Origin: Daejeonella sp. JGW-45
GTDB lineage: Bacteria > Bacteroidota > Bacteroidia > Sphingobacteriales > Sphingobacteriaceae
Assembly: GCF_029360805.1 (NCBI RefSeq)
Contig: NZ_JARKNC010000008.1
Coordinates: 124,001-188,000, forward strand
DNA length: 64,000 nt
Direction of reading: 5' to 3'
Shown: piece by piece, positions 9,889-35,907 of the stretch
Layout of the letters: each line of letters begins with the position of its first letter
How positions within the stretch are numbered: the stretch's first letter is position 1
The notes under the pieces: model-generated
What the model was told of the DNA's origin: nothing
Databases searched by the model: none
Seen by the model: only the letters and a program-made list of their open reading frames with translations
Made by a program: the position numbers and the translations under genes

Positions 9889-9966
9889 CAAATTTCACTT
9901 TCTTGAAGAATTTAATCAGATACTCCTGTTTACATTAGTGATACTTTTTTCTATATCTTGTATTCT
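9889..9966 (-). promoter_or_regulatory. promoter A: three in-phase half-sites upstream of a TAnnTTTG-like -7 element
   Basis: Read on the minus strand, the half-sites are AGAAT (9966-9962), AGTAT (9945-9941) and AGTAT (9924-9920), each exactly 21 bp from the next. After a 23-bp spacer comes GAAATTTG (9896-9889), a one-mismatch version of the Bacteroidota -7 element TAnnTTTG. The ATG of the Tat-Gfo/Idh gene is 23 bp further on. The same arrangement recurs at promoters B, C and D in this window. A 21-bp direct repeat next to the -33 region is the geometry expected of an activator that contacts RNA polymerase, for example AraC-type. The remainder of the 142-bp gap holds nothing else recognisable. 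Confidence 0.7.
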
Positions 9967-10008
9967 AATGGGAGATTGTTTCATTTATAGCAATTAAATA
10001 TAAATTAA

Positions 10009-11127
10009 TTACTTTTTATCCCGCGCTACACCTAAGGCGATTCTAAAACCGTCCCTGGAATCGGAATAGGCAATGCCCTGAAGTCCCAGACGGACCGCAA
10101 TACGTGCGTTACCGGGAACGTCAAAATAATTTCCGCTGCGGCAAACGGGACGATAGTTCTGATCCACAAAAAGAGGCTCTTCATGACCTCCCTTAGGATC
10201 AAAATGGTCCAATACAATTTCCCATACACCACCGCACATATCCGCCAGACCAAAACCATTTCTTCCTTTTTCTCCAAAATGATCAACTGGAGAAACAAAT
10301 GCAAAACCATCACTCCAGGGCGCTTTAGCTAATGGCCAGGTCTTATTTCGACCAGGCAGAAAGTCAATAGCGGAAATGTTCAACCGGCCTTCACCTTCGC
10401 TCAGATCATTGCCCCACCAGTAGTAAGTATCTTCACGTCCACCCCTCGCTGCATATTCCCATTCTGCTTCAGTAGGTAAGCGATATTCAAGTCCTTTTGG
10501 AAGCCGGCCCGCAGCCCTTTCCCGCTTAGTCAGCCACTCGCAAAATGCTCTGCCATCATTCCAGCTCACGCAGACCACCGGATATACATCTCTCAGGGGG
10601 AAACCGAAATTAGGATCTCGCCAGCTCTTACCGCTTAGAGATATCCAAGGATGAGGTGGTGCCTTAGCGGTGATCTTCCATTCAGGGTCGAAAACCTGGG
10701 TTTTGCCTCCTGGCTTCTCCGCATCTGTAATATACCCGCTTTCCTCAACGAAGCGTCTAAACTGGCCGACGCTAACTTCTGTACGACCCATCCAGAAACC
10801 ATCCTTCACGCGCATCGGACGTGGGTGTTCACCTTCATAGGACTCGCGTGAAGTTCCGGGTGTTGCGCCACCTTCAATACCTGTAGCCCAGGCCTTTTCT
10901 GCAGCCGTGCTGCCCATTTTAAATTCCCCGGGCGGGATATAAAGCATCTCGAGAGACACACCTCCTCCCAGATCAAGTTTTTTTACCGTATTCTGCCCAG
11001 GTCTGTCTGCATCAGACTTGAGCTTGTCTGCGTTACCCTTAGCTGTTGCCATGACCCCAGGTATGGATCGTAAATCCAGAAAGACAATAAATACCAAAAA
11101 TAAAATAAGCAAAAAAGTCCTTTTCAT
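10009..11127 (-). CDS. secreted SUMF1-fold (formylglycine-generating-enzyme-like) protein lacking the FGE cysteine pair
   Basis: 372 residues with an N-terminal hydrophobic leader (about 4-27). The FGE/SUMF1 domain is evident from FKMGSTAAEKAW, YPVVCVSWNDGRAFCEWL, RLPTEAEWEYAARGG, DMCGGVWEIVLDHF and DSRDGFRIAL. In true formylglycine-generating enzymes the last part carries two catalytic cysteines (RGGSFLC-x4-C type); here that segment reads CRSGNYFDVPGNARIAVR, with one cysteine displaced before the arginine. No sulfatase gene is nearby. It is therefore probably a SUMF1-fold protein with another extracytoplasmic role. It is the third gene of the operon that starts with SusC at 16030, separated from SusD by 142 bp containing a perfect hairpin. 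Confidence 0.83.
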   Translation of the reverse strand: MKRTFLLILFLVFIVFLDLRSIPGVMATAKGNADKLKSDADRPGQNTVKKLDLGGGVSLEMLYIPPGEFKMGSTAAEKAWATGIEGGATPGTSRESYEGEHPRPMRVKDGFWMGRTEVSVGQFRRFVEESGYITDAEKPGGKTQVFDPEWKITAKAPPHPWISLSGKSWRDPNFGFPLRDVYPVVCVSWNDGRAFCEWLTKRERAAGRLPKGLEYRLPTEAEWEYAARGGREDTYYWWGNDLSEGEGRLNISAIDFLPGRNKTWPLAKAPWSDGFAFVSPVDHFGEKGRNGFGLADMCGGVWEIVLDHFDPKGGHEEPLFVDQNYRPVCRSGNYFDVPGNARIAVRLGLQGIAYSDSRDGFRIALGVARDKK

Positions 11128-11182
11128 GATATTGATTTTGATAACTTGATTAAATTGTCAGAACAGAAACAATCATGTTATA

Positions 11183-11218
11183 AGCTTTTCCGGCCTGCAA
11201 ATGCAGGCCGGAAAAGCT
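11183..11218. repeat. perfect 17-bp hairpin between susD-like and SUMF1-like genes
   Basis: Arms at 11183-11199 and 11202-11218 are perfectly complementary (17 bp) around a 2-nt centre; the arm core is TTTTCCGGCCTGCA. No T-run follows on the minus strand, so it is not a standard intrinsic terminator. It may lower expression of the downstream SUMF1-like gene relative to SusCD or protect the 3' end of the SusCD message. Confidence 0.7.
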
Positions 11219-11269
11219 ATATACTTCTTTCAATACAGCATAATTTTCACAAAATCCTATGTTTCCTGA

Positions 11270-12895
11270 TCAATGGTCAGGGTTCTGAATTAACTTTGGA
11301 TTCAGCTGAGTTTCAGTCAAAGGAATAGGGAGTAGTGCCCAACCCGGTTTATGTGTTCCTTTTTTATTTATCGTCTTCAGGTGACCTCTGTATTTTCCTG
11401 TAAGCTCAACTGATGCACCCGTAAAAGTTTCCGGAGTATCGGTTAGCTTCATTCCGTGGAATTGTTGTTCCATCACAGTAAACCAAATACCCCATCTGCG
11501 AATATCCATGTACCGGATATCTTTCTCCAGCGCGAATTCGATGCGCCTTTCAAGGCGCACTATCTCTCTTAATTTGGCGCGATCCAATTCCGTAACGGCA
11601 GGCATAGCTACTTCTGCCCTGCCCCTGACTTTGTTTATGGTCTCATCAAGCAGTTCCTGGGTGATAGCTTCATTATTTTCAAGTTTAGCCTCTAAATAAC
11701 TTAAAAGCACTTCTGCATAGCGTATATGTATTACATCGTCACCAGATGACCCCATATCTCCGAGATAGCCTTCTGTAGCATACTTTTTCCAGCCATATCC
11801 GGTTGCACCAACCAAAGTCCCTATTGCGCTGTTTGCCCTTGTGAAGAGCTTCCCATTAAATACAGTATATCCAGGTAGGAAGACAGTAGCATACAGGCGA
11901 GGGTCGCGATTCTCGAATGGCTTAGCCGGATCATATAATGGCGATGTTTCAATGGGCAATCCGTCTTTCATCAAGTAGCTGCTTATTAGCTCCTCATAAA
12001 CGTTAGTTTCCTGATAGCCACCGTAAGCGTCCGGAAGATAATTACGCTGAGCTTTGGTATTACCGAAAAGACCGGCGATGAAATTGGTTGACAAGATAGT
12101 TTCTTTAGTATCTTCTCCTCTTTCTTCGAATATAGCCTTGTAACGAGGGTCAATAATATGTACTTTCAGATCAATAATCTCTTTATAGGTTTTAGCGGCG
12201 TCAGCCCACTTCTTTTCCATGAGTTCTAATCTTCCTTTAACAGCAAGTGCTGCGGCTTTCAGTATACGCCCTTTTTCGCTCGCAGGTCTGGTGGCCGGCA
12301 AATCTTTTGCAGCTGCCGTCAGCTCAGCTTTAGCAAAATCCGATACTTCTGCCAGGGTAGCACGGACCTGGGTTTTCGACTCATCAACAGTTAAAACTTG
12401 CTTAATTAATGGAACCCCTCCATAAAACATTGCAAGTTGCCAATACTCGTAAGCTCGCAAGAATTTAGCTTCAGCAATCAGCTGGGCTTTCTTCGTTGCA
12501 TCCATGGTTACTTTGTCTATATTAGCAAGAAAATAATTGGCCTTAAAAATGGTGCGATAACCCCTTGTCCAGATCGAACCAGCTACCTGGGCATCACTGG
12601 AAACCACGTATCCGCTATAAATAAGTCCCACTTTACTATTTTTATAGTCTGAATCATCGGTCATACTTGACAGGATAAGCAGCTCATTACCATTGTTATT
12701 ACCAGTACCTACGCTACTCCCGTTGTACATCCCCGTTAAAGCCAGAAGAGCATCACCTTCACTATTCCAAAACGCACCCTCCGACAGGTCTGTCAGTGGC
12801 TGTTGATCCAGCAGATCTTTTTGACATCCGGATAGACTGACTATAGAAATCAGTATGCCTGCGCTTACTATCCTTATTCTATTAAATATTTTCAT
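11270..12895 (-). CDS. SusD/RagB family outer-membrane lipoprotein (pair 1)
   Basis: 541 residues. The leader ends in the lipobox LSGC followed by QKDLLDQQP, the usual start of mature SusD proteins. RYAEVLLSYLEAKLENNE and VRLERRIEFALEKDIRYMDIRRWG are the conserved C-terminal SusD motifs. It forms the lid on the partner SusC channel encoded directly upstream (13004..16030) and binds the imported ligand at the cell surface. The gap to SusC is 108 bp. Length is normal for the family. Ligand specificity cannot be read from sequence. Confidence 0.93.
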   Translation of the reverse strand: MKIFNRIRIVSAGILISIVSLSGCQKDLLDQQPLTDLSEGAFWNSEGDALLALTGMYNGSSVGTGNNNGNELLILSSMTDDSDYKNSKVGLIYSGYVVSSDAQVAGSIWTRGYRTIFKANYFLANIDKVTMDATKKAQLIAEAKFLRAYEYWQLAMFYGGVPLIKQVLTVDESKTQVRATLAEVSDFAKAELTAAAKDLPATRPASEKGRILKAAALAVKGRLELMEKKWADAAKTYKEIIDLKVHIIDPRYKAIFEERGEDTKETILSTNFIAGLFGNTKAQRNYLPDAYGGYQETNVYEELISSYLMKDGLPIETSPLYDPAKPFENRDPRLYATVFLPGYTVFNGKLFTRANSAIGTLVGATGYGWKKYATEGYLGDMGSSGDDVIHIRYAEVLLSYLEAKLENNEAITQELLDETINKVRGRAEVAMPAVTELDRAKLREIVRLERRIEFALEKDIRYMDIRRWGIWFTVMEQQFHGMKLTDTPETFTGASVELTGKYRGHLKTINKKGTHKPGWALLPIPLTETQLNPKLIQNPDH

Positions 12896-13003
12896 CTGTT
12901 TATTTGTTTGTTTGTTATTGGTGATGAAGCAATCATGATTTGATAATCATACCCCTGCGGGCTTTGGCAAAATCATGATGGTTTCATAATCGTTTTTGAT
13001 TGA

Positions 13004-16000
13004 TTAAAATTTCAAACTTAAACCTGCAACATACATTCTCGTAAGCGGGTAGTACCAGTCAGCACCACCGGTTACCATTTCAGGATCCCATCCTTTGTAG
13101 AAATCAGAAAGGGTGAATAAATTCTCACCGCTAACATATAAGCGTAGACTGCTTACACCCACTCGGCCCAATAAGCCTTTAGGCAGTGTATATCCGATTT
13201 GAGCATTTTTCAGTCTTAAGAAGGTTGCATCACGGTACCAGAAATCAACACGGTTGGTATTAAAAAATCCGGAAGCTATGTTACGTAATTTAGGGTATGC
13301 AGCGTTCGGATTTGGATTTGCCGCAGTCCAGCGGTTCTCATAAGCATCACGTTGCACGTTGCTGTTGTTTTCAAGAGGAAAGAAAAACTGGCCCAGAGTT
13401 ACCTGATCATTTCTTCCGCCCTCTCCCTGCAGCATGAAATTAAAATCGAAGTTCTTATATCCTCCGTTTAAAGTAAGTGCATAGGTTGACGTAGGTAGAG
13501 GCTGTCCAATGATAGTTCTGTCATAGGCTGCATTTACAACACCGTCAGGCACACCATTTGGACCGCTGATATCTAAATATTTTATTCCTCCGCCTTGCGC
13601 CTGATCAGCAAAGGGCTGAGTCGGATAACCGGCAACATCTGCATTACTGCCAAACAAGCCATCACTTTTGAAGCCGTAAGTACTACCGATAGGATATCCA
13701 ACAAATAATCCTCTGGCAATATCCTGATTAATATTTGTTAGTTTGGTCACCTTATTATCGACAAGTGATAAGATAGCAGAGACGCCATAAGAAAAATCTC
13801 CAATATTATTCCTGTAATTAAGGTTAAAATCCCATCCTCTGTTTTCAACTGATCCGGCATTAGCCAACGACGGGGTCGCACCTAATGTGCTGGAAACAGA
13901 TACACTATAAAGAATATCCTCAGTGGTCTTTACAAAATAATCAGCTGAAAGCGACAACTTATTGTTAAACATGCCCAGATCAACCCCGACGTTATTGATG
14001 GTTGTGGTTTCCCAGGTAATGTCTTTATTAGCTATCGTGGTAACCGCAGCACCCGCACTTAACGTACTGCCGAAAGGGTAAACCGGTGCGAGTGACAACA
14101 GATCCTGGTAAGGATAATTTCCAATAGATTGATTTCCTAGCTGTCCCCATGAAGCACGAAGTTTAAGATCGCTTAAGAATGATATCGCATCTTTGAAGAA
14201 GCCTTCTTGCGATACCCGCCAAGCTGCTGAGAACGAAGGAAATAACCCCCATCTGCTGTCTTTCGGGAAACGGGATGATCCATCATACCTGGCATTCGCC
14301 TCGAACAGATACTTCTCACGGAAATTGTAATTGAATCGCCCGAAATAAGACTGTAGGGTATTTCGTGATGCACTTCCTGTCTGCGTTCCACGAGCAGTTG
14401 ATCCAGCGTTAATTTCATAAATACTATTATTCGGAAACGCGTCTCTGAAAGCACCAAGACCTCTACCGTCAAAAGTCTGACCTGAAACTCCACCGAGCAC
14501 ATAAAATGTGTGATCTTTCACTTTTTTGTTATACTCGACAAGAGTTTGTAAGGTAAGTGCGGTACTTTCAGACCAATCTTCTCTTAAACTATTTAACGCA
14601 TTACCATAGGTTGGAGTGATGGCGTATTTCGCAGTATACGCTTTTGTTTGAAAATTTCCATATGTATATCCCAACTGTCCTGTAACCTTCAGATCTTTGA
14701 ATACATCCCATATTACGCTTCCGTTAGTAATAAAATTAGTGCTTCTATTATTCCGAAATGAAGCGCTTTCCAAATCTGCTTCGGGATGAAGAGTTTCATT
14801 TCTACCGTAAAAGCCATCCGGCGTTCTTCCCGGGATAGTATTTGCATTACGCATTGCACCACCCACTATATTACCGAGACCACCGCCGCCGATCCCTGAC
14901 GGCTGACCATTCTTGTTTAAATTTCCGGCGAGCTTAAGGCTGAACCTTAGTTTATCATTTAGCCTCGTATCAAGGTTCGTACGAATATTATAACGATTTG
15001 CATTGTTTTTGGTAATGATACCGTTTTCATTATAATAGCCTAATGAAAACATATACTGCGTTTGCTCAGATCCCCCGCGAACACCTATATCGTGACGGTT
15101 GGAAATCCCATTGCCTGAATTGAATAAATTACCGATGTGGTCAAAATTTGGAAAGTTAACCGGATCTTCACCTGATCTGAATTTCGCGATATCGGCATCA
15201 GAATATCTTTTAGCTGCGCCGGCATCCACAAAGACCTGATTAATTACCTCTGCGTATTCCCATGAGTTGATCATCTCCGGAACCATTGTAGCTTCTGACT
15301 TACCTACATAAGTATTATAGGTAAATACCGGCTTGCCAACAACGCCTCTTTTCGTTTCAACCAGGATAACTCCGTTCGCAGCTTTGGATCCAAAGATGGC
15401 CGCAGATGCCGCGTCTTTCAAAACAGAAACACTCTGAATATCGTTAGGGTCAACAAGGTCAAGCGACCCCTCTATCCCGTCAACCAGAACGAGCGGGCTA
15501 TTACCGGCGCCACTGAATGTACCTTGCCCTCTGACAACCAGGGAAGCCCCGTTATTAGCCGGGTTACCTCCACCTTGCCGCACCTGGATACCGCTCATCT
15601 GTCCTTGTAATACAAGTGACGATTTTGTTGCCGCTCTCTTTTCCAGTTGTTCAGCAGATACTGAAGCCACCGACCCTGTCAGGTTCACTTTCTTTTGTGT
15701 ACCAAAACCCACAACAACCACTTCATCTAATGCCTGTTGATCGCTGACCAAAGTGATATCAACTGAAGTTTGATTGTTTACAGCAACTTCCTGGGTTACA
15801 AAACCGATGTAGGTAACTACCAACGTACTGTTGTTATCCGGTACATTGATTGAAAATCTTCCGTCCGTGCCCGAGCTAACCCCCGCAGAGGTTCCCTTTA
15901 GTTTAATACTAACTCCGGGAAGAGTTTCTCCTTTCGAATCAGTTACTTTTCCAGTAACAGTTCGACTTTGTGCACTTGCATAGTACGAGGTACTAAACAG

Positions 16001-16030
16001 TACGAGAAATAGTAGTAAAATACTTTTCAT
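13004..16030 (-). CDS. SusC/RagA TonB-dependent outer-membrane transporter (pair 1)
   Basis: 1008 residues with signal peptide (cleavage likely after YYASA). Next come a carboxypeptidase-regulatory-like domain (TVTGKVTDSKGETLPGVSI, about 22-100), a TonB-dependent plug starting DEVVVVGFGTQKKVNLTGSV, and a 22-strand barrel ending GLSLKF with a terminal aromatic residue. Unlike the second SusC in this window it lacks an STN signalling domain, so it should not signal to an anti-sigma factor. It is the first gene after promoter B and pairs with the SusD at 11270. It imports an oligomeric or large ligand with energy from TonB. Confidence 0.95.
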   Translation of the reverse strand: MKSILLLFLVLFSTSYYASAQSRTVTGKVTDSKGETLPGVSIKLKGTSAGVSSGTDGRFSINVPDNNSTLVVTYIGFVTQEVAVNNQTSVDITLVSDQQALDEVVVVGFGTQKKVNLTGSVASVSAEQLEKRAATKSSLVLQGQMSGIQVRQGGGNPANNGASLVVRGQGTFSGAGNSPLVLVDGIEGSLDLVDPNDIQSVSVLKDAASAAIFGSKAANGVILVETKRGVVGKPVFTYNTYVGKSEATMVPEMINSWEYAEVINQVFVDAGAAKRYSDADIAKFRSGEDPVNFPNFDHIGNLFNSGNGISNRHDIGVRGGSEQTQYMFSLGYYNENGIITKNNANRYNIRTNLDTRLNDKLRFSLKLAGNLNKNGQPSGIGGGGLGNIVGGAMRNANTIPGRTPDGFYGRNETLHPEADLESASFRNNRSTNFITNGSVIWDVFKDLKVTGQLGYTYGNFQTKAYTAKYAITPTYGNALNSLREDWSESTALTLQTLVEYNKKVKDHTFYVLGGVSGQTFDGRGLGAFRDAFPNNSIYEINAGSTARGTQTGSASRNTLQSYFGRFNYNFREKYLFEANARYDGSSRFPKDSRWGLFPSFSAAWRVSQEGFFKDAISFLSDLKLRASWGQLGNQSIGNYPYQDLLSLAPVYPFGSTLSAGAAVTTIANKDITWETTTINNVGVDLGMFNNKLSLSADYFVKTTEDILYSVSVSSTLGATPSLANAGSVENRGWDFNLNYRNNIGDFSYGVSAILSLVDNKVTKLTNINQDIARGLFVGYPIGSTYGFKSDGLFGSNADVAGYPTQPFADQAQGGGIKYLDISGPNGVPDGVVNAAYDRTIIGQPLPTSTYALTLNGGYKNFDFNFMLQGEGGRNDQVTLGQFFFPLENNSNVQRDAYENRWTAANPNPNAAYPKLRNIASGFFNTNRVDFWYRDATFLRLKNAQIGYTLPKGLLGRVGVSSLRLYVSGENLFTLSDFYKGWDPEMVTGGADWYYPLTRMYVAGLSLKF

Positions 16031-16055: not shown

Positions 16056-16112
16056 CAAATTTAACCTTAGAACAAGCCTCATTCCAGTACTTATATTTAC
16101 ATTCATAATACT
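16056..16112 (-). promoter_or_regulatory. promoter B: 21-bp direct repeat upstream of TAAATTTG
   Basis: On the minus strand AGTAT (16112-16108) and AGTAC (16091-16087) are 21 bp apart, then a 23-bp spacer leads to TAAATTTG (16063-16056), a perfect TAnnTTTG -7 element. The SusC ATG follows 25 bp later. Spacing is identical to promoters A, C and D. A 12-base core around the -7, AAATTTGATTTC, is shared with promoter A. Confidence 0.78.
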
Positions 16113-16301: not shown

Positions 16302-17348
16302 CTATTTAAAATCCACAGGCTTTTTACCCTTCTTGAATCCTTCCATTCCGAACATGGTGGGTTCGTAAGTTCCTACATAATCCACATTGCTCTTCTCTGG
16401 TATGTTTTTCTCCAGGCCCACGGCCCAGTATGAAGCATTAACCACCAAGCGACGCAGATCTTCACTTATAAAATCAATCGCTGCACCCGTGGTGGTTGTG
16501 AAAACCCTGCCCACCCTTCCTGACTCACTTAAATAAGTCCTTGTCCAGGCAAGCGGCATGATAGTTTTGGTCCAGATGGCCGGGCTGGTTGCGGTTAAGC
16601 CTTCCGTTCCCTGTCCCCATAGAAGAATCTTTGAGTTAGCAGGCAGGCTCTTAATCCCATAAACTTCCGTCGTAGTCCAGATATCATTGATACCCTTTAA
16701 TATAGGATTTGCATCGGCAACCTCAAGACCGCTTATCAATGCACGGGTTCCCTCCTTGGCATTTGCACCATGATGATTTACCCAATTCTCCCCGAGTATG
16801 CGTTTACCAAATCCGCCTTCCCATCCTTCGGTGGTACTTCTGAACCCATACTTTGCATACTTATTATTCGGGTCACGTTTATAATAGAAAGCGTGGGTAG
16901 CAGTTCTCAGGCCGATTACCGGCTTACCTGCAACCAGATACCTGTGAATATGCTCCATCTGATCATCGGGCAGTTCCCTGAACCTCGTAGCTATGATCAT
17001 CAGATCGGCAGCTGCGAGAAACTCCAGTCCGGGAATATTCTGATGATAATTCGGATCTACGAATTGGGTTTCCGGGTTGATAGAGAATAGTACTGTTGTG
17101 CGGAAGCCGTGCCGCTCAGATAATATTTTAGCCAGCATAGGCAGTGATTCTTCAGAACGGTATGCTTCATCCCCCCCGATAAGGACGATGTGCTTTCCGT
17201 TCGCCTGTCCGGCAGGGGGTGAAAACTGCAGCCATGGACCGGTTTTCTGCGCGAATGCGACGTGCATACACAGGATTAAAATGCCGGTTAAGACGTACTT
17301 CATAAAAATTGAGCTTCTGTTTAAAAAAGGGTTTGCTTGTTTGTTCAT
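16302..17348 (-). CDS. ThuA domain protein, exported (copy 1)
   Basis: 348 residues from the ATG at 17348. A longer frame opens at 17666 but would run through low-complexity spacer repeat, and the chosen start gives exactly the length of the paralogue at 27144. The leader MKYVLTGILILCMHVAFAQ is a signal peptide. GKHIVLIGGDEAYRSEE and FGKRILGENWVNHHG are typical of ThuA-like proteins, which have a class I glutamine-amidotransferase-like fold and occur in trehalose and keto-sugar catabolism. It is the last gene of operon C, following the PQQ dehydrogenase. A periplasmic role on a 3-keto-sugar is plausible but inferred. Confidence 0.85.
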   Translation of the reverse strand: MNKQANPFLNRSSIFMKYVLTGILILCMHVAFAQKTGPWLQFSPPAGQANGKHIVLIGGDEAYRSEESLPMLAKILSERHGFRTTVLFSINPETQFVDPNYHQNIPGLEFLAAADLMIIATRFRELPDDQMEHIHRYLVAGKPVIGLRTATHAFYYKRDPNNKYAKYGFRSTTEGWEGGFGKRILGENWVNHHGANAKEGTRALISGLEVADANPILKGINDIWTTTEVYGIKSLPANSKILLWGQGTEGLTATSPAIWTKTIMPLAWTRTYLSESGRVGRVFTTTTGAAIDFISEDLRRLVVNASYWAVGLEKNIPEKSNVDYVGTYEPTMFGMEGFKKGKKPVDFK

Positions 17349-17363
17349 TGTTGTATTTTTTGA

Positions 17364-17455
17364 GACATGAGGTTTGAAGTGTGAGATATGAGCAGGGTAG
17401 TCTTGGTTTTGGTTCTTGGTTCTTGATTCTTGATTCTTAATTTGTGATTCCTGAT
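17364..17455. repeat. 7-bp-period spacer repeat (E1)
   Basis: The spacer between the PQQ dehydrogenase and ThuA genes is two runs of degenerate heptamers. Positions 17364-17391 are four units of form nnnnTGA, and 17401-17455 hold eight units (one of 6 bp) around TCTTGAT, for example TCTTGGT and TTGTGAT. On the transcribed strand the recurrent anchor is TCA. Related arrays occur at 19596, 30989, 33281, 41649 and 54251. Confidence 0.7.
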
Positions 17456-17460
17456 CCTCC

Positions 17461-19566: not shown

Positions 19567-19595
19567 ACGTTTTTATTTACAGATTCTTATCGGTG

Positions 19596-19644
19596 TCAGG
19601 TATGAGGTATCAGGCCGCTCAAACCTGATACCTCATACCTGATT
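19596..19644. repeat. 7-bp-period inverted repeat (E2)
   Basis: Seven heptamers in register fill the gap between SusD2 and the PQQ dehydrogenase. The first three (TCAGGTA, TGAGGTA and a variant) are the exact complement of the last three, giving a perfect 19-bp stem (19596-19614 with 19624-19642) and a 9-nt loop. It is both a heptamer array and a hairpin. It may set the ratio of SusCD to dehydrogenase transcript. Confidence 0.75.
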
Positions 19645-19645
19645 T

Positions 19646-21361: not shown

Positions 21362-21372
21362 GACTGTAAAAT

Positions 21373-24962: not shown

Positions 24963-24993
24963 CCGGAGGTGTACCACCACCTCCGGTTTTTTT
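24963..24993 (+). terminator. intrinsic-terminator-like hairpin facing the plus strand
   Basis: A perfect 9-bp GC-rich stem (CCGGAGGTG at 24963-24971 with its complement at 24978-24986) is followed on the plus strand by seven Ts. It lies between FecR and SusC2, both on the minus strand, so the T-run points against the operon. It could stop antisense transcription; on the minus strand it is only a hairpin. Confidence 0.45.
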
Positions 24994-25021
24994 GGGCTCC
25001 ACCTAAAACGAGTGTAAAAGT

Positions 25022-26218: not shown

Positions 26219-26306
26219 AACAATAATTCTTTTTATTGCTATTACGCATGAGATTAGTCCGCCATCTACCTGGAGGACAAAAAAATATTCGGAAAGACAA
26301 GGAAGT

Positions 26307-27037: not shown

Positions 27038-27094
27038 CAAATTTAGCCTGCATTCCCAGGATAATCTGATACTTTTTTTCATATTGGTAATACT
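27038..27094 (-). promoter_or_regulatory. promoter C: 21-bp direct repeat upstream of TAAATTTG
   Basis: On the minus strand AGTAT (27094-27090) and AGTAT (27073-27069) are 21 bp apart, followed by a 23-bp spacer and TAAATTTG (27045-27038). The ECF sigma ATG lies 140 bp further on, leaving an AT-rich leader with no recognised structure. Proximal half-sites in C and A share AGTATC(A/T)GATTA. Spacing is identical to promoters A, B and D. Confidence 0.78.
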
Positions 27095-28190: not shown

Positions 28191-28323
28191 TAGATGGCTT
28201 TATGAATGCTGATCATAATATACTAATGTCCGGTTAAAAGTTCTTAATTAAAATATGTTTTTATTCCTTGCAGTGGATATTTAGTAGCAAGATTTATGTA
28301 GTCAGAGATTGTTCAACCCCTCC

Positions 28324-29442
28324 TCAATAAGTAATCACTCTGTCTCTGGCTACTACCCTCCAGGTATCCGTCAATTCTCCGTCTTGCACAACTAAGGCGT
28401 TCTCAAATAAAGCCACAGTTGGACAAATATGGACCGGCACGGCGTAGAAAATATCACCTATCTTAAAACTGTGACCCTTCTCGACCTCTATCACCATATG
28501 CTCCTCACTATGTCCTGAAGGCTTCAGCTCTGGATAGTTCAAAAAGCCGACGCGGTTGGTTAGCTCATTTTCTGAAGCAACCGACTTATAACCCAGATCA
28601 ATGCAAATTTTATTTTCAGCCGGAAGAGACACTACCCTGGTCATTACGAGGGCTGCGTACTTGAAATCCTGTTCGGGCAGAGTGTCACGATATCCTTTAT
28701 CCCAGAAAACAAATGTTCCCGGGCAGCATTCTGTGTTCACTTTCTTTGAATGAATTGCAAAAGTAGGTGATCCACCTGCTACCAATAGCGGAAGCTGCCC
28801 CCCTTCCTCCTTTATCTTTTCCCGCAGCACTTCTGCTTCTTTAAAATCATTTTCGCAATGAGCTGTGCGTTCGGCAAGGTCAACATCCCTTATGTGGCCA
28901 TCATAAGCATGAAATCCTTTAAATTCCAACTCCCTGAGGCTTTGAATATCATTGAACAAGCCATATGCCGCACCAGGTTTGATGCCAGTACGGTTCATGC
29001 CCACGTTTAGATCTATAAACACTGGAAGCACTGCTCCCCTCTTTGCCGCTTCTGAGTTTGAAAACAAGTCGGCGAACATCCGGCCGGATTCGATATTATC
29101 AAGCAGGCAGGAATACCTTGTGCCCGGGTATTCTCTTATAAGGTTCAGGAAGCGAAGAAATTTCGGTCTCCCAGGCTGATAAGCTAACATTACATCTTCT
29201 GCTCCCGCTATTCCCAGCATTTCTGCCTCGGCTATACTTGCGGCCTTAAATTTCCTTATCCCTGCGTCCTGCATCATCCGGCAGATCTCAGTCAGTTTAT
29301 GCGTCTTAACATGCGGACGAAGTTGCTTGGGATCCCTAACCATGGTCAAAACCTGACGGATATTATCCAAAGCCCGGTCCTTGTAGACAAGAAGAGCAGG
29401 AGAATCGATGTTCTCAGCGTTTTTGACTGTATACCAGTGCAT
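28324..29442 (-). CDS. D-threonine aldolase-like PLP-dependent enzyme
   Basis: 372 residues of the DSD1/D-threonine-aldolase family, which has the fold-type III alanine-racemase-like barrel. LRPHVKTHK (41-49) contains the PLP-binding lysine, probably K46. GGSPTFAIHSK and VPVHICPTVALFENALVV near the C-terminus fit the metal-binding domain. Family members cleave D-threonine and other D-3-hydroxy amino acids, or dehydrate D-serine. The gene starts 14 bp after the M19 dipeptidase and is presumably co-translated. The substrate in this sugar-oxidation context is not obvious. Confidence 0.83.
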   Translation of the reverse strand: MHWYTVKNAENIDSPALLVYKDRALDNIRQVLTMVRDPKQLRPHVKTHKLTEICRMMQDAGIRKFKAASIAEAEMLGIAGAEDVMLAYQPGRPKFLRFLNLIREYPGTRYSCLLDNIESGRMFADLFSNSEAAKRGAVLPVFIDLNVGMNRTGIKPGAAYGLFNDIQSLRELEFKGFHAYDGHIRDVDLAERTAHCENDFKEAEVLREKIKEEGGQLPLLVAGGSPTFAIHSKKVNTECCPGTFVFWDKGYRDTLPEQDFKYAALVMTRVVSLPAENKICIDLGYKSVASENELTNRVGFLNYPELKPSGHSEEHMVIEVEKGHSFKIGDIFYAVPVHICPTVALFENALVVQDGELTDTWRVVARDRVITY

Positions 29443-29456
29443 AAGAAATTAATTAA

Positions 29457-30545
29457 TCAGGCCCAGGCTTTGCGAAGGAACCTCAGCCAGTTTTTATAAA
29501 ATATATTCTCAATGTCCTCGGTCGAATAGCCCCGTCTTTGGAGCATGCCATTGAGCTTCTGCAAATCTGAAATGTCTTCCAGGTCATATGGGGATTGCTC
29601 TTTTCCATAGGCACCGTCCAGATCGCTGCCAATGGCAACATTGAGGCTATTACCGGCAAGCTGGCAGATGTGGTCATAGTGGTCAACGATCAGCTCAAGG
29701 TGTACATTTCTTTCTTTAGGATCATCTTTACCCCGCACCCAGTTATCCGTAAGCATCCAGGTATCGAAAACTCCACCAATAACAGAATCCCTTTCGATCA
29801 AAACACGAATCTGATCATCAGTCAGCTGCCTTTGATGATCGACCAGTTTTCGGCAATTATGATGACTTGCCCAGATAGGTCCCTTGTACATCGCTGTTGC
29901 TTCTTCAAAACCTTTGTCTGTAAGATGGGTAATATCCAATATCATATTCAGCCTATCCATCTCCGCAAGAAGCTCCCGTCCCGCGGCGGTAAGCCCCTCT
30001 GTCCTGCCAGTACCTGCTGCATACCTGCCGGGACCATAGTGCGCAGGGCCACAGGCCCGGAGGCCGTAGCTATAAGCTTTTTCCAGGTAAGATATATCAA
30101 CCAATGAATCGGCCCCCTCAAGGCTCAGAATATACCCAACAGGTTTGCCCTCGTCCGGTATCGTTTTATCAAGCCAAAGAGTCAGATGTCTCTCCAGCTG
30201 CATAAGATCAACTATCTGCACCATCTCCCCCTGATCTTCCATGGCGCGGTACCAGGCCAACTGCGCCTGGGAAATCCCCCAGGCAATTTCAGGTGAATTC
30301 CAGCCGGGAATAAGACTGCCAGCGTCAACGTAACGGGCTATCTGGGTGGCCACTACCAGTCCGATATTTCCTTTTCGCAATTCAGGTAATGCCACCGTCC
30401 CGAGCGCACGGTCCAGCTTATCGCTCATCCCCTTTTCACGCTCCCGGATCTCGTAAACAGATTGTTTAAGGTCGCGGTTCCACTCAATCGCATTCATCGA
30501 AAGATCGAGATGGCAATCGAATATAAATATTGATTCCTCAGGCAT
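29457..30545 (-). CDS. M19 family membrane dipeptidase (renal-dipeptidase-like)
   Basis: 362 residues. FDCHLDL (9-15) is the HxD metal pair, WASHHNCR (about 225) supplies further histidines, and IGSDLDGA near residue 312 is the conserved aspartate segment. The family hydrolyses dipeptides, including those with D-residues at the C-terminal side. No signal peptide is visible, so it is probably cytoplasmic here. It lies 11 bp after RidA and 14 bp before the D-threonine-aldolase-like gene. With those neighbours it suggests processing of an amino-acid-containing product. Confidence 0.88.
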   Translation of the reverse strand: MPEESIFIFDCHLDLSMNAIEWNRDLKQSVYEIREREKGMSDKLDRALGTVALPELRKGNIGLVVATQIARYVDAGSLIPGWNSPEIAWGISQAQLAWYRAMEDQGEMVQIVDLMQLERHLTLWLDKTIPDEGKPVGYILSLEGADSLVDISYLEKAYSYGLRACGPAHYGPGRYAAGTGRTEGLTAAGRELLAEMDRLNMILDITHLTDKGFEEATAMYKGPIWASHHNCRKLVDHQRQLTDDQIRVLIERDSVIGGVFDTWMLTDNWVRGKDDPKERNVHLELIVDHYDHICQLAGNSLNVAIGSDLDGAYGKEQSPYDLEDISDLQKLNGMLQRRGYSTEDIENIFYKNWLRFLRKAWA

Positions 30546-30556
30546 TTTAGCGGATG

Positions 30557-30958
30557 TTATTTTCCGGGCTGGCGCACAGCGATCGCATCGATCTCCACTT
30601 TAATACCATGACCTAAAACCGACTGTACGGTGGTCCTTGCTGGCTTCACCTTGGTAAAGTAACTTGCATAAACCGCATTGTAACGGTCAAAGTCTTTGAT
30701 ATCGCTCAGGTGAACCGTACATTTCACAATGTCATCCAAAGTGAAACCGGCTGCTTCACAAATACGCTTAACATTATGCATAGTCAGGTGCGTTTCTTCT
30801 TCAATAGTTCCCAAAGTAAAAGAACTGGTTGTAAAATCTACTGCAGCCTGGCCGCTTACAAATAGCCAGTCTCCTAATACCTGTACCCCGGCCGAATAGG
30901 CTCCTGTGGTAAATGACTTATCTGCTTTGTCCGGGTGATGTATTTCTATCTTTTCCAT
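30557..30958 (-). CDS. RidA/YjgF family protein
   Basis: 133 residues from the ATG at 30958 (MEKIEIHHPDKADK). A longer frame to 31045 runs through heptamer-repeat DNA and is rejected. GAYSAGVQVLGDWLFVSGQ and ARTTVQSVLGHGIKVEIDAIAV are RidA signatures, the arginine of ARTTVQ being the catalytic one. RidA hydrolyses reactive 2-aminoacrylate-type imines released by PLP enzymes, which fits the D-threonine-aldolase-like enzyme in the same operon. It may also be a Rid-subfamily deaminase with a pathway-specific imine. Confidence 0.88.
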   Translation of the reverse strand: MEKIEIHHPDKADKSFTTGAYSAGVQVLGDWLFVSGQAAVDFTTSSFTLGTIEEETHLTMHNVKRICEAAGFTLDDIVKCTVHLSDIKDFDRYNAVYASYFTKVKPARTTVQSVLGHGIKVEIDAIAVRQPGK

Positions 30959-30988
30959 TTTTAATATATTTAATAGTTTAGGTTGCTT

Positions 30989-31079
30989 TGGGCTATGAGC
31001 CATGGGCTTTGAGTTATGGGCTTCACAAAACAGCTCACAGCTCACAGTTCATAGCTCACTGCTCACTACTCATAGCCCA
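30989..31079. repeat. 7-bp-period inverted array (E3)
   Basis: Two heptamer arrays face each other between RidA and the dehydrogenase gene. The left array (30989-31023) has five units such as TGGGCTA and TGAGTTA. The right array (31031-31079) has seven units such as CAGCTCA, TAGCTCA and TAGCCCA. Their outer ends are exact complements over 11 bp (TGGGCTATGAG, 30989-30999, with 31069-31079), so the transcript can fold into a long imperfect hairpin. Confidence 0.78.
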
Positions 31080-31084
31080 TATCA

Positions 31085-32083
31085 CTAACCTTCTTTTTCT
31101 TCTTTCAATTTTGCGAGTTTCCTTTGGACGATATCAAAAGGATATTTCATAGCCAGTTTCCTGATCTCGTAGTTGAAATCCGCAAAAGTTTCTTCCCACA
31201 TTTTCGATTCTTCTGGTGTGTATTTATAGAAGCCATGACCGTTAGCCACACCTTTGCCGCCTGCCTTCACTATATCATCGATGAGTTTAGGCACATGTGT
31301 ATCATTGCACAGGGTCGGGTTAAGGTCTTTCATCACATTGTGATACGCAGGCACACCGGTAAGGTCCATCCAACCGAAAACTCCAACCAGGGTCATCCAG
31401 TAACCGGTATTATTGCGGCATGCACGGTCGACATCTTCAACCGTTGCGTAACCATTTTCAACCAGGTAAAAAGCTTCACGATACATCGCGTACATCAAAC
31501 GATTGGTAATAAACCCGCGGATATCTTTTCTGACCAAAGTCGCTTCCTTATTCCAGTAATTCGACAACTCATAGAGGAACTCGCCTTTTTCGATGTCGCT
31601 TTGTTCTCCACAGATCACCTCAAGGAAGCGGGTCGTGTGCGAGGGTTCAGCCCAGTGCAGACCAAAAAACCGGTCGGGGTGTTTGGTCATCTTCTGCAGG
31701 ATACTGATCGGAATTGCCGAGGTGTTGCTCGTCATGAGCGCGTCGTCTGCAATTACAGCTTCGATCTTCGCATATACTTCTTTTTTTATTTCCTCGCTCT
31801 CCAGCGTACATTCTATAGCCAGTTTACAAGGTCTTAACGCGGCGTAGTCTTCCGTAATGATCAGGTTCTTAAAATAGAATTCCGGATCTTCTGTAACCAT
31901 TCCCTCCTCTTTTGCTTTAATAAAGTGTTTACGGATACGTGACTCCGCTGTCGTCATATCAACACTAATCGGGGCAATGGCTACCACCGGATGCCCGGCC
32001 ATCAGGAGGCAAGTGGTAATGCTGCAGCCCATAAGACCCAGGCCGATAACACCTACCGGGATTTCATTTGTTTTAATTGACAT
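31085..32083 (-). CDS. 3-hydroxyacyl-CoA dehydrogenase family oxidoreductase
   Basis: 332 residues. GVIGLGLMGCSITTCLLMAG (12-31) is the NAD loop and MTSNTSAIPISILQ with FFGLHWAEPSHTTRFLEVI marks the 3-hydroxyacyl-CoA / 3-hydroxybutyryl-CoA dehydrogenase family. There is a single two-domain unit without a hydratase domain. The operon is otherwise sugar- and amino-acid-like, so the substrate may be a hydroxy acid rather than an acyl-CoA; L-gulonate 3-dehydrogenase, a sugar-acid enzyme, belongs to the same superfamily. It follows the Gfo/Idh gene by 47 bp. Confidence 0.82.
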   Translation of the reverse strand: MSIKTNEIPVGVIGLGLMGCSITTCLLMAGHPVVAIAPISVDMTTAESRIRKHFIKAKEEGMVTEDPEFYFKNLIITEDYAALRPCKLAIECTLESEEIKKEVYAKIEAVIADDALMTSNTSAIPISILQKMTKHPDRFFGLHWAEPSHTTRFLEVICGEQSDIEKGEFLYELSNYWNKEATLVRKDIRGFITNRLMYAMYREAFYLVENGYATVEDVDRACRNNTGYWMTLVGVFGWMDLTGVPAYHNVMKDLNPTLCNDTHVPKLIDDIVKAGGKGVANGHGFYKYTPEESKMWEETFADFNYEIRKLAMKYPFDIVQRKLAKLKEEKEG

Positions 32084-32130
32084 ATCTATTTTTTTCTGAT
32101 CGATAAGAAGTTTCTGGGTAAGCCGGTATG

Positions 32131-33213
32131 TTATAACTTAACCACCTGTCCGGTTCTAACAGACTCATCACAGGCAAAAGCGATGCGTAAGCTGTTCACC
32201 GCATCATCCCCGTGATCGGTCAGATCAGTGTCTTCTTTTATAGCTTTCAGGAAAAATGCCTGCTCACGGTTACATAGCTCCTGATGATCAGGTTCATCCT
32301 GCAAGTTGATCCAGGTATCCTCTTTTGCAAACAACTCATCCTTGGTAAGATCAGCGTGATGGAAACGTATAGATTCAGTTTTGGTATGAGCCTCGATAGA
32401 AGAAGATTTTCCGACACCTCCGGCATCTTTCGCAACAATAGATACAGAGCCTTTCGGGCCAACCACGTCCTTCACAAAAAACGCTGTTTCACTCATCATC
32501 GGACCCCAGCCTGCTTCATACCAACCCACTGACCCATCTTCAAAGCGGATCTGCAACTGACCGTAATTATAATTTCCTGCCGGAATATCTTCTGTTAACC
32601 TGGCTCCGATCGCATACACCTGTGTTGGTTTCGAACGTGTCATCTGGCACATTACATCAATATAATGAACTCCACAATCCACGATCGGGCTCAGAGCATT
32701 CATCAGGTTACGGTGAAGTGTCCACATAGCACCATCGCTCTGCTGGTTCAAGTTCATCCGCATCACCAGCGGCCTGCCCAGTTCGCCGGTCAGCTCTATA
32801 AATTTCTCCCATGACGGGTGATGACGCAGGATATATCCGACCACTAATTTCTTATTTGCCTTCTTTGCAGCAGCAACAACGCGCTCAGCACCTTCAACAG
32901 AATCAGCCACCGGCTTTTCAATAAACACGTGACAGCCAGCCTCGAAAGCCATAATCGCGTAGTGCTCATGGGTATCCGGATAAGTCGAAATACAAACAGC
33001 ATCAGGCTTTGTAGCCTTCATAGCTTCATCCATATCATTAAACAGGGCATATTTATTGCCCATTTTCGCATTCAGCGTTTCCTTTGATTTTCCGCGAGAT
33101 ACAAGCCCGACGATTTCGAATCCATCATTCGTGTGATAAGCCATGGCGTGAGACGCACCCATGTTCCCGCAGCCCAGCACAAGGACTCTCACGGGTTTAA
33201 CCTGATTTGACAT
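32131..33213 (-). CDS. Gfo/Idh/MocA family oxidoreductase
   Basis: 360 residues. VRVLVLGCGNMGASHAMAYH (about 8-27) is a normal GxGxxG Rossmann loop, FIEKPVADS near residue 100 has the catalytic EKP lysine, and DCGVHYIDVM near 180 the active-site histidine. It is cytoplasmic. It lies directly downstream of the GMC oxidoreductase (98-bp gap with a heptamer repeat), and GMC plus Gfo/Idh pairs are known from 3-keto-glycoside metabolism. I infer it reduces or further oxidises the product of the GMC enzyme. Confidence 0.9.
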   Translation of the reverse strand: MSNQVKPVRVLVLGCGNMGASHAMAYHTNDGFEIVGLVSRGKSKETLNAKMGNKYALFNDMDEAMKATKPDAVCISTYPDTHEHYAIMAFEAGCHVFIEKPVADSVEGAERVVAAAKKANKKLVVGYILRHHPSWEKFIELTGELGRPLVMRMNLNQQSDGAMWTLHRNLMNALSPIVDCGVHYIDVMCQMTRSKPTQVYAIGARLTEDIPAGNYNYGQLQIRFEDGSVGWYEAGWGPMMSETAFFVKDVVGPKGSVSIVAKDAGGVGKSSSIEAHTKTESIRFHHADLTKDELFAKEDTWINLQDEPDHQELCNREQAFFLKAIKEDTDLTDHGDDAVNSLRIAFACDESVRTGQVVKL

Positions 33214-33280
33214 AATATTAATTGTTAATTATTTTTGTTAATTGCTAGTTGCCAGATTCCTAGTATTTCCGCGGATCCAC

Positions 33281-33308
33281 TTTCAACTTTCAACTCTCAA
33301 CCTTCAAC
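33281..33308. repeat. 7-bp-period tandem repeat (E4)
   Basis: Four contiguous heptamers, TTTCAAC twice and then two variants (TCTCAAC, CTTCAAC), end 4 bp before the stop codon of the GMC gene. It is the shortest and most regular of the heptamer arrays here and has no inverted partner. Confidence 0.75.
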
Positions 33309-33311
33309 TGT

Positions 33312-35015
33312 TTACAAATTTCCTTTCTTTAATTCTTTAACGGCATGATCACAAGCCCTGGCTGTGAAGGCCATATAGGTTAAAGATGGATTCTGGCATG
33401 CATTTGAAGTCATGAATGCACCGTCAGTTACGAATACATTCTTCACATCGTGCATCTGGTTCCATTTATTCAGTACCGAAGTTTTAGGATCGTGTCCCAT
33501 GCGGGCCGTACCCATTTCGTGAATAGCCCTTCCCGGAACTGCTCCATTATCGAATGTCGTAATATCTTTCATTCCGGCAGCTTCGAGGATCTCTGCGGCA
33601 TCATTCTTCATATCGATACGCATTTTGCGTTCATTCTCTCCGAACTCGCAATCGACCGCCAATAAAGGTATGCCCCACTTATCTTTCTTTGTCCTATCGA
33701 GGAAAACCTTGTTTTTATACTCTGGCAAGTGTTCACCGAAAGAACCAAGTCCCATAACCCATGGTCCCGGTTCGGTTGTGGTTTCCTTGAAGTCTTCGCC
33801 GTAACCCATTTCAGGAATGGCGCGTTGCCAGCCGGTTCTGCTGGCACTTCCGCCGTAATGGAAACCACGTAAGTAATCCCGCTCCGGCTTATCACCAAGG
33901 TTACGGTAACGTGGAATATAAATCCCTATCGGACGCCTTCCGTAATAATATTTATCATCAAAGCCTTCCGCCTTTCCTGAAGCTCCAATCTGGAAATGGT
34001 GGTCCATCAGGTTGTGCCCCAGCTGACCACTGCTATTGCCCAGTCCTTCAGGGAAAGTATCAGACGTTGAGTTCAGCAGGATCTGCGTAGTACCCAGGGT
34101 CGAAGCGTTCATAAAGATCACTTTGGCAAAGTACTCAATATGCTCGTTCGTTTCTGTGTCGATCACCATCACCCCTTTTGCTTTTTTTGTTTCCTTATCA
34201 TAAAGCACCTCGCTCACGATGGAGTATGGACGAAGAGTAAGGTTGCCTGTAGCTACTGCGGCGGGTAAAGTTGCCGACTGGGTGCTGAAATAAGCCCCAA
34301 ACGGACATCCTCTGGAGCAAAGACTTCGGCTCATACAGCTCCCACGTCCATTGTGAGGGACAGTGAGATTGGCCATCCGGTAAACAGTCATCATCCGCTC
34401 CCGATTATAGTGCTTTTCAATACGTTCTTTCACCGCCTTTTCCACACAATTCATTTCGAAGGGAGGCAGGAATACTCCGTCAGGCAATTGTGCAAGTCCC
34501 TCGTTTTGTCCGCTGATACCAGCAAAACGCTCTACATAATCATACCATGGCGAGATATCTTTGTAACGTACAGGCCAGTCAACGCCATAGCCATCTTTTG
34601 CGTTGGCTGCAAAATCCATTTCACTAAGACGCAGGCATCCGCGTCCCCACATAAGGGATCTACCACCAACATGATATCCCCGGATCCAGTCGAAGCTTTT
34701 TTCTTCTGTATAAGGACATTCTATATCGTCTACCCAAAATTTTGCGTTAAACTCAGTGTACTGCCCACCGCGAATCTGGACCTGGTGCCGGCTTCGCTCT
34801 TCAGGCGTTATTCTTCCCCTGTGTTTAAATTCCCAGGGTTTCATCATTGCTGTATCGTAATCTTTTACATGTTCCACATTACGGCCACGTTCAAGCATTA
34901 ATACTTTCAATCCTTTTTCGGTTAATTCTTTGGCTGCCCAGCCACCGCTAATACCCGAACCAACTACGATCGCATCATAGGTATTCTGCTGCGTTCCTTT
35001 TATATTAATATTCAT
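33312..35015 (-). CDS. GMC (glucose-methanol-choline) oxidoreductase, large flavoprotein subunit
   Basis: 567 residues. DAIVVGSGISGGWAAKEL (14-31) is the FAD-binding loop, and VLMLERG follows it. MWGRGCLR and GRGSCMSRSLCSRGCPFGAYF fit gluconate/2-keto-sugar and glucoside-3-dehydrogenase large subunits. IHEMGTARMG and SNACQNPSLTYMAF near the C-terminus carry the catalytic histidine and asparagine. It lacks its own leader. The small subunit gene immediately upstream (31-bp gap) encodes a twin-arginine protein, so the pair is probably exported together by Tat. It should oxidise a sugar hydroxyl in the periplasm; a cytochrome c subunit is not in the operon. Confidence 0.91.
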   Translation of the reverse strand: MNINIKGTQQNTYDAIVVGSGISGGWAAKELTEKGLKVLMLERGRNVEHVKDYDTAMMKPWEFKHRGRITPEERSRHQVQIRGGQYTEFNAKFWVDDIECPYTEEKSFDWIRGYHVGGRSLMWGRGCLRLSEMDFAANAKDGYGVDWPVRYKDISPWYDYVERFAGISGQNEGLAQLPDGVFLPPFEMNCVEKAVKERIEKHYNRERMMTVYRMANLTVPHNGRGSCMSRSLCSRGCPFGAYFSTQSATLPAAVATGNLTLRPYSIVSEVLYDKETKKAKGVMVIDTETNEHIEYFAKVIFMNASTLGTTQILLNSTSDTFPEGLGNSSGQLGHNLMDHHFQIGASGKAEGFDDKYYYGRRPIGIYIPRYRNLGDKPERDYLRGFHYGGSASRTGWQRAIPEMGYGEDFKETTTEPGPWVMGLGSFGEHLPEYKNKVFLDRTKKDKWGIPLLAVDCEFGENERKMRIDMKNDAAEILEAAGMKDITTFDNGAVPGRAIHEMGTARMGHDPKTSVLNKWNQMHDVKNVFVTDGAFMTSNACQNPSLTYMAFTARACDHAVKELKKGNL

Positions 35016-35046
35016 TTCTTTTAATCAATATTCATGAATCAATTAC

Positions 35047-35619
35047 TTAAGTTGCCCATGCTTTCTGTCCTGGCTTCAGAGGAACGCAAGCCTCATATTT
35101 ACCAGGAATATCGACATATCTCAAAGCCTTCGTAGCACCTATTTCTGAGGTATAATAACCCAGGCATGTCAATTCGTAAAACAGCGGAAAAAAATTCGAA
35201 GTAGCCGTTCCAGCTTTCCGCTGGGCTATGGCCTCTGCTTTGAAAAGTTTAAATATCTCTTCACGCTCTTTTAAAGTCAGCGCTGTAAATGGTCTCTTAT
35301 ACTGGTTTTGAGAGACCTCGTCTACTTTCATCAGACCATCTGCGAAATTCTTTTGGACATTTGCTGTGTAACAATCCTGCAGCATCATCACCACAAAGGG
35401 TCCAACGCCTGCGGCTTTTGCACCCGGCACATCTTTGGTATCCGGAATGATCGTATCGGCAATTGCTGCGATCAATGCTTCCTGGGACTCAATTGATTTA
35501 GCTTCCACACCACTCCCGCTCACCGGGCCGAGCACTTCAGCAAGGGCTCCAAAGCCCGACATAGTCAGCGCGCCACCCAACAAAAAGGTAGCCCGTTTGA
35601 CTGCTTCTCTTCTGTTCAT
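35047..35619 (-). CDS. gluconate 2-dehydrogenase subunit 3-like protein with Tat leader
   Basis: 190 residues. NRREAVKRATFLLGGALTMSG is a twin-arginine leader, followed by the gluconate-2-dehydrogenase subunit 3 domain (EALIAAIADTIIPDTKDVPGAKAAGVG). It acts as small subunit and export carrier for the GMC flavoprotein encoded next. It is the first gene of operon D. The start at 35619 is supported by the twin-arginine position near the N-terminus. A leader of about 230 nt separates it from promoter D. Confidence 0.88.
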   Translation of the reverse strand: MNRREAVKRATFLLGGALTMSGFGALAEVLGPVSGSGVEAKSIESQEALIAAIADTIIPDTKDVPGAKAAGVGPFVVMMLQDCYTANVQKNFADGLMKVDEVSQNQYKRPFTALTLKEREEIFKLFKAEAIAQRKAGTATSNFFPLFYELTCLGYYTSEIGATKALRYVDIPGKYEACVPLKPGQKAWAT

Positions 35620-35850
35620 CTGTCTTTTTTCTCTAGTTATTATTCAAATTAACCACCGGCTATTAACCGGTTGAACTCGTAGGTTTCTAATATTTGACTA
35701 TAATAAGTATTTTTCTTTAAACTGGAGGTCTTGAAAAAAATTGCATTAAGCTTCAGGATGAATCAGGCACATATGCATCTTTTCTCAATCCGATCCCGCA
35801 TGCGCTTGTTTCCCCGAAAAATCCGGCTAGGAACTTGTCGTTCCCTGTTT

Positions 35851-35907
35851 CAAACCTAGTCATCACGCCCGAATCAAACTGATACTATTAACCAGAATAA
35901 TTGTACT
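35851..35907 (-). promoter_or_regulatory. promoter D: 21-bp direct repeat upstream of TAGGTTTG
   Basis: On the minus strand AGTAC (35907-35903) and AGTAT (35886-35882) are 21 bp apart, followed by a 23-bp spacer and TAGGTTTG (35858-35851), a perfect TAnnTTTG. The -7 sequence differs from A-C in its variable bases, so the match is not simple copying. The 644-bp gap 35620-36263 holds this promoter, a long leader with a possible hairpin around 35656-35671 (ACCGGC/ACCGGT), and a small divergent frame at 35996; nothing else was recognised. Confidence 0.75.

Follow-up and report, generated by a model that had tools for sequence, protein, structure and literature searches.

At the araBAD promoter of Escherichia coli, AraC occupies two half-sites in tandem, which follow each other at 21 bp and adjoin the core promoter. 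Similar arrangements have been described in Bacteroides: in this and other groups of bacteria, AraC-family proteins that regulate rhamnose utilisation are associated with direct repeats of 21-bp periodicity (PMC3870299, in the part available), and the hybrid two-component system (HTCS) regulators of B. thetaiotaomicron with direct repeats at an average distance of 21 bp (PMC3878776, likewise in its available part). Here we report on six promoters of this build in Daejeonella sp. JGW-45, four of them within a stretch of 64,000 nucleotides of contig NZ_JARKNC010000008.1 (C9 in our numbering; this whole stretch is called the window, its base 1 is C9:124001 and it covers C9:124001-188000), together with an AraC-family gene to the left of the window, whose product very probably controls them all. 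While 21-bp AraC-type direct repeats are known in Bacteroides, what appears to be new is a one-component AraC regulon in Daejeonella; in the open-access literature, no paper on such a motif or regulator in Daejeonella or Sphingobacteriaceae was found.

As far as the available part of PMC3870299 describes it, the RhaR regulon resembles the Daejeonella system in being local and in depending on a one-component AraC-family regulator, an activator for RhaR and a putative one in Daejeonella, with 21-bp direct repeats. This likeness lies in the repeat architecture; the genes are different, those in Daejeonella forming a 64-kb cluster with SusCD, pyrroloquinoline quinone (PQQ), GMC and cytochrome genes. 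The HTCS regulators, in the accessible sections of PMC3878776, share the AraC-type DNA-binding domain, the 21-bp repeats and SusCD operons among the targets, whereas the Daejeonella protein is a one-component protein of 312 aa, in which Pfam detects an AraC-type domain only and no kinase, receiver or periplasmic sensor. E. coli AraC combines a cupin with a double helix-turn-helix (HTH), as the Daejeonella protein may do too, and has an operator beside the regulator gene in common with it, but sequence identity is low and the Daejeonella promoters carry a Bacteroidota -7 element instead of -10/-35; no evidence of DNA looping as in E. coli AraC was found here.

Six promoters of one geometry and a neighbouring AraC-family gene

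The original prediction had placed four promoters on the minus strand of the window, each with two AGTA(T/C) half-sites 21 bp apart and a TAnnTTTG-type -7 element, and all four were found at exactly these positions and with these letters, as the only matches in the window (4, versus 0.00 in 100 dinucleotide-preserving shuffles). It had also proposed a genome-wide search with AGTAH-N16-AGTAH-N23-(T/G)AnnTTTG; matches in the 4,095,353 bp of the genome (10 contigs) are indeed few and clustered, namely five, all on the minus strand and within one 42-kb stretch, the fifth lying 6.2 kb left of the window. A sixth, on the plus strand and with a looser second half (AGTAG), emerged from a matrix search; the written pattern misses it because that half ends in G. 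The sites and the gene of the candidate regulator are (window positions, unless C9 is given):

Promoter A, 9889..9945, minus strand: distal half-site AGTAT at 9941-9945, proximal half-site AGTAT at 9920-9924, -7 element GAAATTTG at 9889-9896; heads an operon running leftwards from the gene at 8844-9866
Promoter B, 16056..16112, minus strand: heads SusC-SusD-SUMF1
Promoter C, 27038..27094, minus strand: heads extracytoplasmic function (ECF) sigma-FecR-SusC-SusD-PQQ/cytochrome-ThuA
Promoter D, 35851..35907, minus strand: heads gluconate dehydrogenase subunit 3-GMC-Gfo-3HCDH-RidA-M19-D-serine dehydratase-ThuA
Promoter 5, C9:117782-117838, minus strand: left of the window
Promoter 6, C9:96862-96918, plus strand: left of the window; faces an MFS transporter gene and a Gfo/Idh gene
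Candidate regulator gene, C9:95852-96790, minus strand: left of the window; 312-aa AraC-family protein

In the 144 kb around the cluster, pairs of AGTAY followed by the -7 element occur five times with a half-site distance of 21 and a gap of 24 (to ANNTTTG), and at no other half-site distance (6-60) or -7 gap (0-79). When the distance to TTTG was freed (12-42) across the genome, nine matches resulted, five at one distance and four scattered at others; the reversed control gave 12. Across the six sites the -7 distance does not vary; 16 of their 57 columns are invariant, 13 of which were fixed by the search, and no invariant column falls between positions 26 and 50.

All six sites carry the downstream element (T/G)AnnTTTG, the -7 element of the Bacteroidota primary sigma factor; the predicted TAnnTTTG holds for five of them, and promoter A has G in first place. 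Taking TAnnTTTG as -12 to -5, as given in the available part of PMC9723704, the proximal half-site spans about -40 to -30 and thereby covers the -33 position. A -33 TTTG is missing from most sites: four of the six have no TTG 10-24 bp before the -7 element, promoters 5 and D have TTTG 16 bp before it, and promoter 5 has a further TTG at 21.

The AGTA(T/C) half-sites, present as predicted, are each longer than had been assumed. Seventeen sites from the genus, a set which includes orthologs and whose members are not independent, give AGTAT-N6-T(12)...AGTAY-N5-T(32)...TAnnTTTG, with T at positions 12 and 32 in 17/17, neither position having been part of the search. In this genome both are T in the five pattern-found sites, and the sixth has T12 and A32. 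Each site offers four putative contacts at intervals of about 10 bp, which is the number and spacing expected of a pair of AraC-type domains, each bearing two HTH motifs. Judged from sequence, tandem half-sites about 21 bp apart with two major-groove contacts each are of the AraC/XylS type.

It had been stated that no candidate regulator gene lies in the window, which is correct for the window itself; two AraC-family genes are located 27-29 kb to its left, the nearer of which, at 27 kb, encodes the 312-aa protein. The sixth site lies 71 bp from the start codon of this gene, on the opposite strand, and faces a divergent transporter gene. Pfam (HTH_18, E 8.2e-22; HTH_AraC, 7.9e-14; both above cut-offs), a structure model and profile matches agree on a C-terminal AraC-type domain with two HTH, which places the protein in the AraC/XylS family. 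The model, built from 38 sequences, has seven strands in residues 17-95 and a C-terminal part with two HTH (helices 184-286). Full-length AraC-family structures take the top Foldseek ranks, with poor overall superposition (root-mean-square deviation (rmsd) 9-13, query TM ~0.4), and 2arc and 2k9s, both structures of E. coli AraC, are among the matches. The C-terminal domain alone fits solved AraC-type domains with an rmsd of ~1.6-2.6, and the N-terminal part matches the sensor domains of AraC, RhaR and BgaR more loosely (target TM 0.51-0.63).

Regulator and sites across the genus and the family

The window's genome was compared with 19 others of the genus, 10 of which contain orthologs of the 312-aa regulator (88-92% identity). 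In all 11 genomes with the gene, own included, a site stands 69-71 bp upstream of it with the same -7 distance, G016 and G019 being among them; the conservation of spacing in relatives, suggested earlier as a check, is thus borne out. A relaxed pattern gave 42 exact matches in the 11 regulator-bearing genomes and two in the nine without the regulator (hand count); these two are AGTA-rich low-complexity sequence, and one of the 42 (G014:C73) looks like chance. The weight matrix was trained on genus sites and scores them highly partly by construction, its weight resting on matches in other genera and on positions unused for selection.

Promoter B has orthologous sites in seven relatives (G003, G004, G006, G014, G015, G017, G018). 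The site of promoter A stands before the same gene in G006, G009, G014 and G017, and matching sequence with the gene out of view was found in G003 (contig end), G004:C172 and G018:C247. For promoter D, a comparison that excludes G019 (contig end), the regulator-bearing genomes G006, G014, G015 and G016 keep only the proximal half-site and TATTTTTA at the same spacing. G010 and G013 provide a partial natural control: both hold the GMC gene of operon D (89-90%), without a regulator ortholog and without a site.

The regulator copy of G009 (L076, G009:C90) has an in-frame TAA at about codon 59, with the adjacent site intact; this copy is either a pseudogene or an error of the metagenome-assembled genome.

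Among 399 genomes of the family, 22 from other genera contain relatives of the regulator at 52-63% identity (hand count). In G152 and G203, whose regulator is 57% identical, a site lies 70 bp upstream; the gene that it faces in G152 is SusC-like (by eye). G239 and G161 (60-61%) have a variant site, its first half being AATA, 79-80 bp upstream; judged by eye, the gene it faces is RidA-like. Three further sites in each of these two genomes, within ~45 kb of the gene, have the -7 element at the same distance; the reversed control gave 6 hits scoring at least 12 in 2.63 Mb. Among 27 more distant relatives (47-63% identity), 11 have a strict half-site 68-83 bp upstream of the gene, whereas 500 composition-keeping shuffles averaged 0.18 such cases and never gave more than 2.

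A scan of the family outside the genus with the pattern alone returned mostly chance matches (58, versus 47 in the reversed control; hand count), of which only those in G239 and G161 looked genuine. Other genera also contain direct repeats of the form AGTACCATT...AGTACCAT, which again have a 21-bp spacing and an unchanged distance to a -7-like element and are possibly operators of related AraC proteins:

AGTACCATT...AGTACCAT repeats: G347:C4:336741, G302:C1:4895216, G102:C29:2368, G277:C2:123834, G360:C102:12417

How the promoters may be controlled

Sites, spacing, the conserved site adjacent to the regulator gene, co-occurrence and protein family are established here, and with them it seems very probable that one AraC/XylS-family regulator, encoded at C9:95852-96790, binds all six sites and coordinates the promoters of the cluster as an activator. 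It would bind, as a dimer or as a pair of monomers, a direct repeat of two ~12-bp half-sites spaced by 21 bp, each consisting of AGTA and a T 10-11 bp further on, with both half-sites on one helix face. Because of the position of the proximal half-site, the bound protein would occupy the place of the -33 element, and would most likely recruit RNA polymerase with the primary sigma factor (class II-type activation). Six promoters of a single catabolic cluster of 64 kb would be under its control, among them the one for the transporter gene that diverges from the regulator gene, the inducer probably being a sugar or sugar derivative bound by the cupin-like part. That one AraC-type protein coordinates the operons had been proposed originally, and comparison across genomes strongly supports it; activation and the replacement of the -33 contact, proposed along with it, are read from the geometry of the sites.

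Several points weigh against this reading. Binding, the direction of regulation, the inducer and the start sites are predictions. No Pfam ligand-binding or cupin model matches the 312-aa protein, and the mean pLDDT of its structure model, 73.8, is moderate. If one mismatch is permitted, chance matches swamp the relaxed pattern (7 in the own genome, 9 in the reversed control). Of the 20 genus genomes, 10 contain the NagB-like gene of operon A, the regulator-bearing ones minus G019, and in 0 of the 9 others; co-occurrence alone cannot separate regulator, sites and cluster, because all three go together. Sites are absent at promoter D in G004, G009 and G017 (the G009 regulator copy being the one with a stop), before the operon A gene in G015 and at the place of promoter 5 in G014, and the scores of the four partial promoter D sites (10.5-15.5) overlap those of the reversed-background top ten (11.7-20.5 in 1.28 Mb). 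Promoter A has TTCG for TTTG in the -7 element of G003, G004, G017 and G018, and the spacer of promoter B is 1 bp longer in G017; such variants are useful for testing spacing tolerance. Beyond the genus, two of the three further G239 sites score near background (11.5 and 12.2). Among the 27 distant relatives, 14 have no simple half-site within 300 bp and two have one only at 164 bp; several of the 14 show what may be related sequence at the same place, which is suggestive. It should also be noted that the half-site pattern behind the 11 of 27 was chosen post hoc, that the shuffles keep base composition only, and that the 27 include paralogs in G006 and G110, one Chitinophagaceae contig and near-identical pairs.

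The same AraC protein could instead act mainly as a repressor, or as a dual regulator which blocks polymerase at -33: a proximal half-site over -33 would fit blocking as well, and the adjacent site could serve to repress the AraC gene itself. However, four of the six lack a TTG in the interval 10-24 bp before the -7 element, so that most of the promoters look too weak to need a repressor, and the 21-bp direct repeat was predicted for Bacteroides RhaR, which PMC3870299, in its available part, describes as an activator; we regard repression as rather unlikely. Considerably less probable still is that the sites are bound by a different regulator, for which two genes in or near the cluster were considered, namely the second AraC gene (C9:94895-95776) and, in operon C, that of the ECF sigma. 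The former is rejected by its distribution: close relatives (63-65%) occur in the genus only in G006, G009, G013, G014 and G015, of which G013 is without sites, and there is none at E 1e-60 in the site-bearing genomes G003, G004, G016, G017, G018 and G019. The ECF sigma is rejected as well, since none of the other 19 genus genomes contains a relative of its gene at E 1e-40; in place of the CGT-type -10 box described for an ECF motif in the accessible part of PMC9723704, the downstream element is (T/G)AnnTTTG in all six sites.

Equally improbable, and already disfavoured, is the view that the promoters are recent duplicates of one sequence, whose shared architecture would have no regulatory meaning. 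Several of them do share stretches such as AATGTAAA between the half-sites; yet the columns between positions 26 and 50 vary under a constant -7 distance, and the same spacing is kept in other genera before other genes. Control by the one AraC/XylS-family activator remains the preferred explanation.

Operons of the cluster and a possible exchange of uptake cassettes

The genes below promoters A to D are (window positions):

First gene of operon A, 8844..9866, minus strand: Gfo/Idh/MocA, with a Tat-type N terminus by eye
Operon B, 10009..16030, minus strand: SusC at 13004-16030, SusD at 11270-12895, SUMF1/FGE at 10009-11127
Operon C, 16302..26897, minus strand: ThuA, PQQ-cytochrome c, SusD, SusC, FecR, ECF sigma
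Operon D, 27144..35619, minus strand: ThuA, D-serine dehydratase, M19, RidA, 3HCDH, Gfo, GMC, gluconate dehydrogenase subunit 3

Strand continuity of open reading frames (ORFs) sets upper bounds of 2 genes for promoter 6, 10 for promoter 5, 13 for A, 3 for B, 6 for C and 8 for D. The regulon, originally put at about 26 genes, may thus be larger, with up to 42 ORFs in the predicted transcripts. Internal promoters are likely, because gaps within these stretches reach 358 bp, and in relatives (G006, G014, G015) an extra site lies inside the promoter 5 stretch, before a DUF7133-cytochrome gene. According to Pfam, the cluster includes Gfo/Idh, PIG-L, DUF7133-azurin, aldolase, ceramidase-like, SusCD, SUMF1, PQQ-cytochrome, GMC/gluconate dehydrogenase subunit 3 and ThuA genes; NagB-like, IolC-like and LutB-like are NCBIfam matches below curated cut-offs, and LutA, LutC and a sulfatase were assigned by eye. 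This gene content suggests oxidation of a sugar or sugar derivative as the likely role of the cluster. Family matches that might point to a particular sugar give a mixed picture and for the most part fall short of curated cut-offs, and the literature on 3-keto-sugar genes gave no direct lead to the compound.

Some further observations concern the surroundings of the cluster and its relatives. The second AraC-family gene (C9:94895-95776, or L007:10895-11776, plus strand in the latter) is divergent to PEP-synthase-like (PPDK_N; PEP, phosphoenolpyruvate) and fructose-bisphosphatase genes and may control gluconeogenesis during growth on the substrate of the cluster. A 998-aa gene lies between operon D and the PQQ gene at G014:C21:115537-118533 and G015:C2:70120-73116 (L048, L054); it is also present in G009 and G018, and not at that place in the window's genome. 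In four relatives the same kind of site stands before a distant operon of a Gfo/Idh gene and a gene for 997-1011 aa, of which kind the window's genome has no exact pattern match; in G015 a 427-aa gene comes first, and ECF-, FecR- or SusCD-like genes adjoin in G014 and G015:

Distant target operon: L186-L189, that is G006:C41, G014:C63, G015:C19, G016:C147

We tentatively propose that the promoters are more stable than the operons they head, and that SusCD uptake cassettes, with or without ECF sigma/anti-sigma genes, could be exchanged beneath promoters at which the AraC protein docks. Three cases point this way, considered without an event count or a tree. Below promoter C of the window, ECF-FecR-SusCD stands between the site and the PQQ gene; in five relatives (G004, G014, G015, G017, G018) a similar site is found directly before the PQQ gene. 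G015 and G014 agree in promoter B and in the signal-peptide region, but in G015 the SusC behind them is 37% identical to that of G014 over the first 370 residues, then poorly alignable; the protein following it has no significant match to the G014 SusD. At the place of promoter 5, the window's genome, G015 and G018 have a site directly before ceramidase-like genes; in G003 and G004 the site is followed by a SusC gene, and in G006 by ECF-FecR-SusCD, where ECF and FecR were assigned by weak similarity and by eye.

For a large sugar-oxidation cluster with PQQ, GMC, Gfo/Idh, DUF7133-cytochrome and SusCD genes, which about half of the searched genus genomes share, the finding supplies a candidate regulator, its putative operator and a list of likely targets. 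Since the sites keep a fixed geometry towards the -7 element, they are well suited to asking how, in Bacteroidota, an activator can make up for the lack of a -33 element. The proposed exchange of cassettes beneath conserved promoters suggests how such clusters may evolve and, if true, new outer-membrane uptake systems would come under existing sugar control at once.

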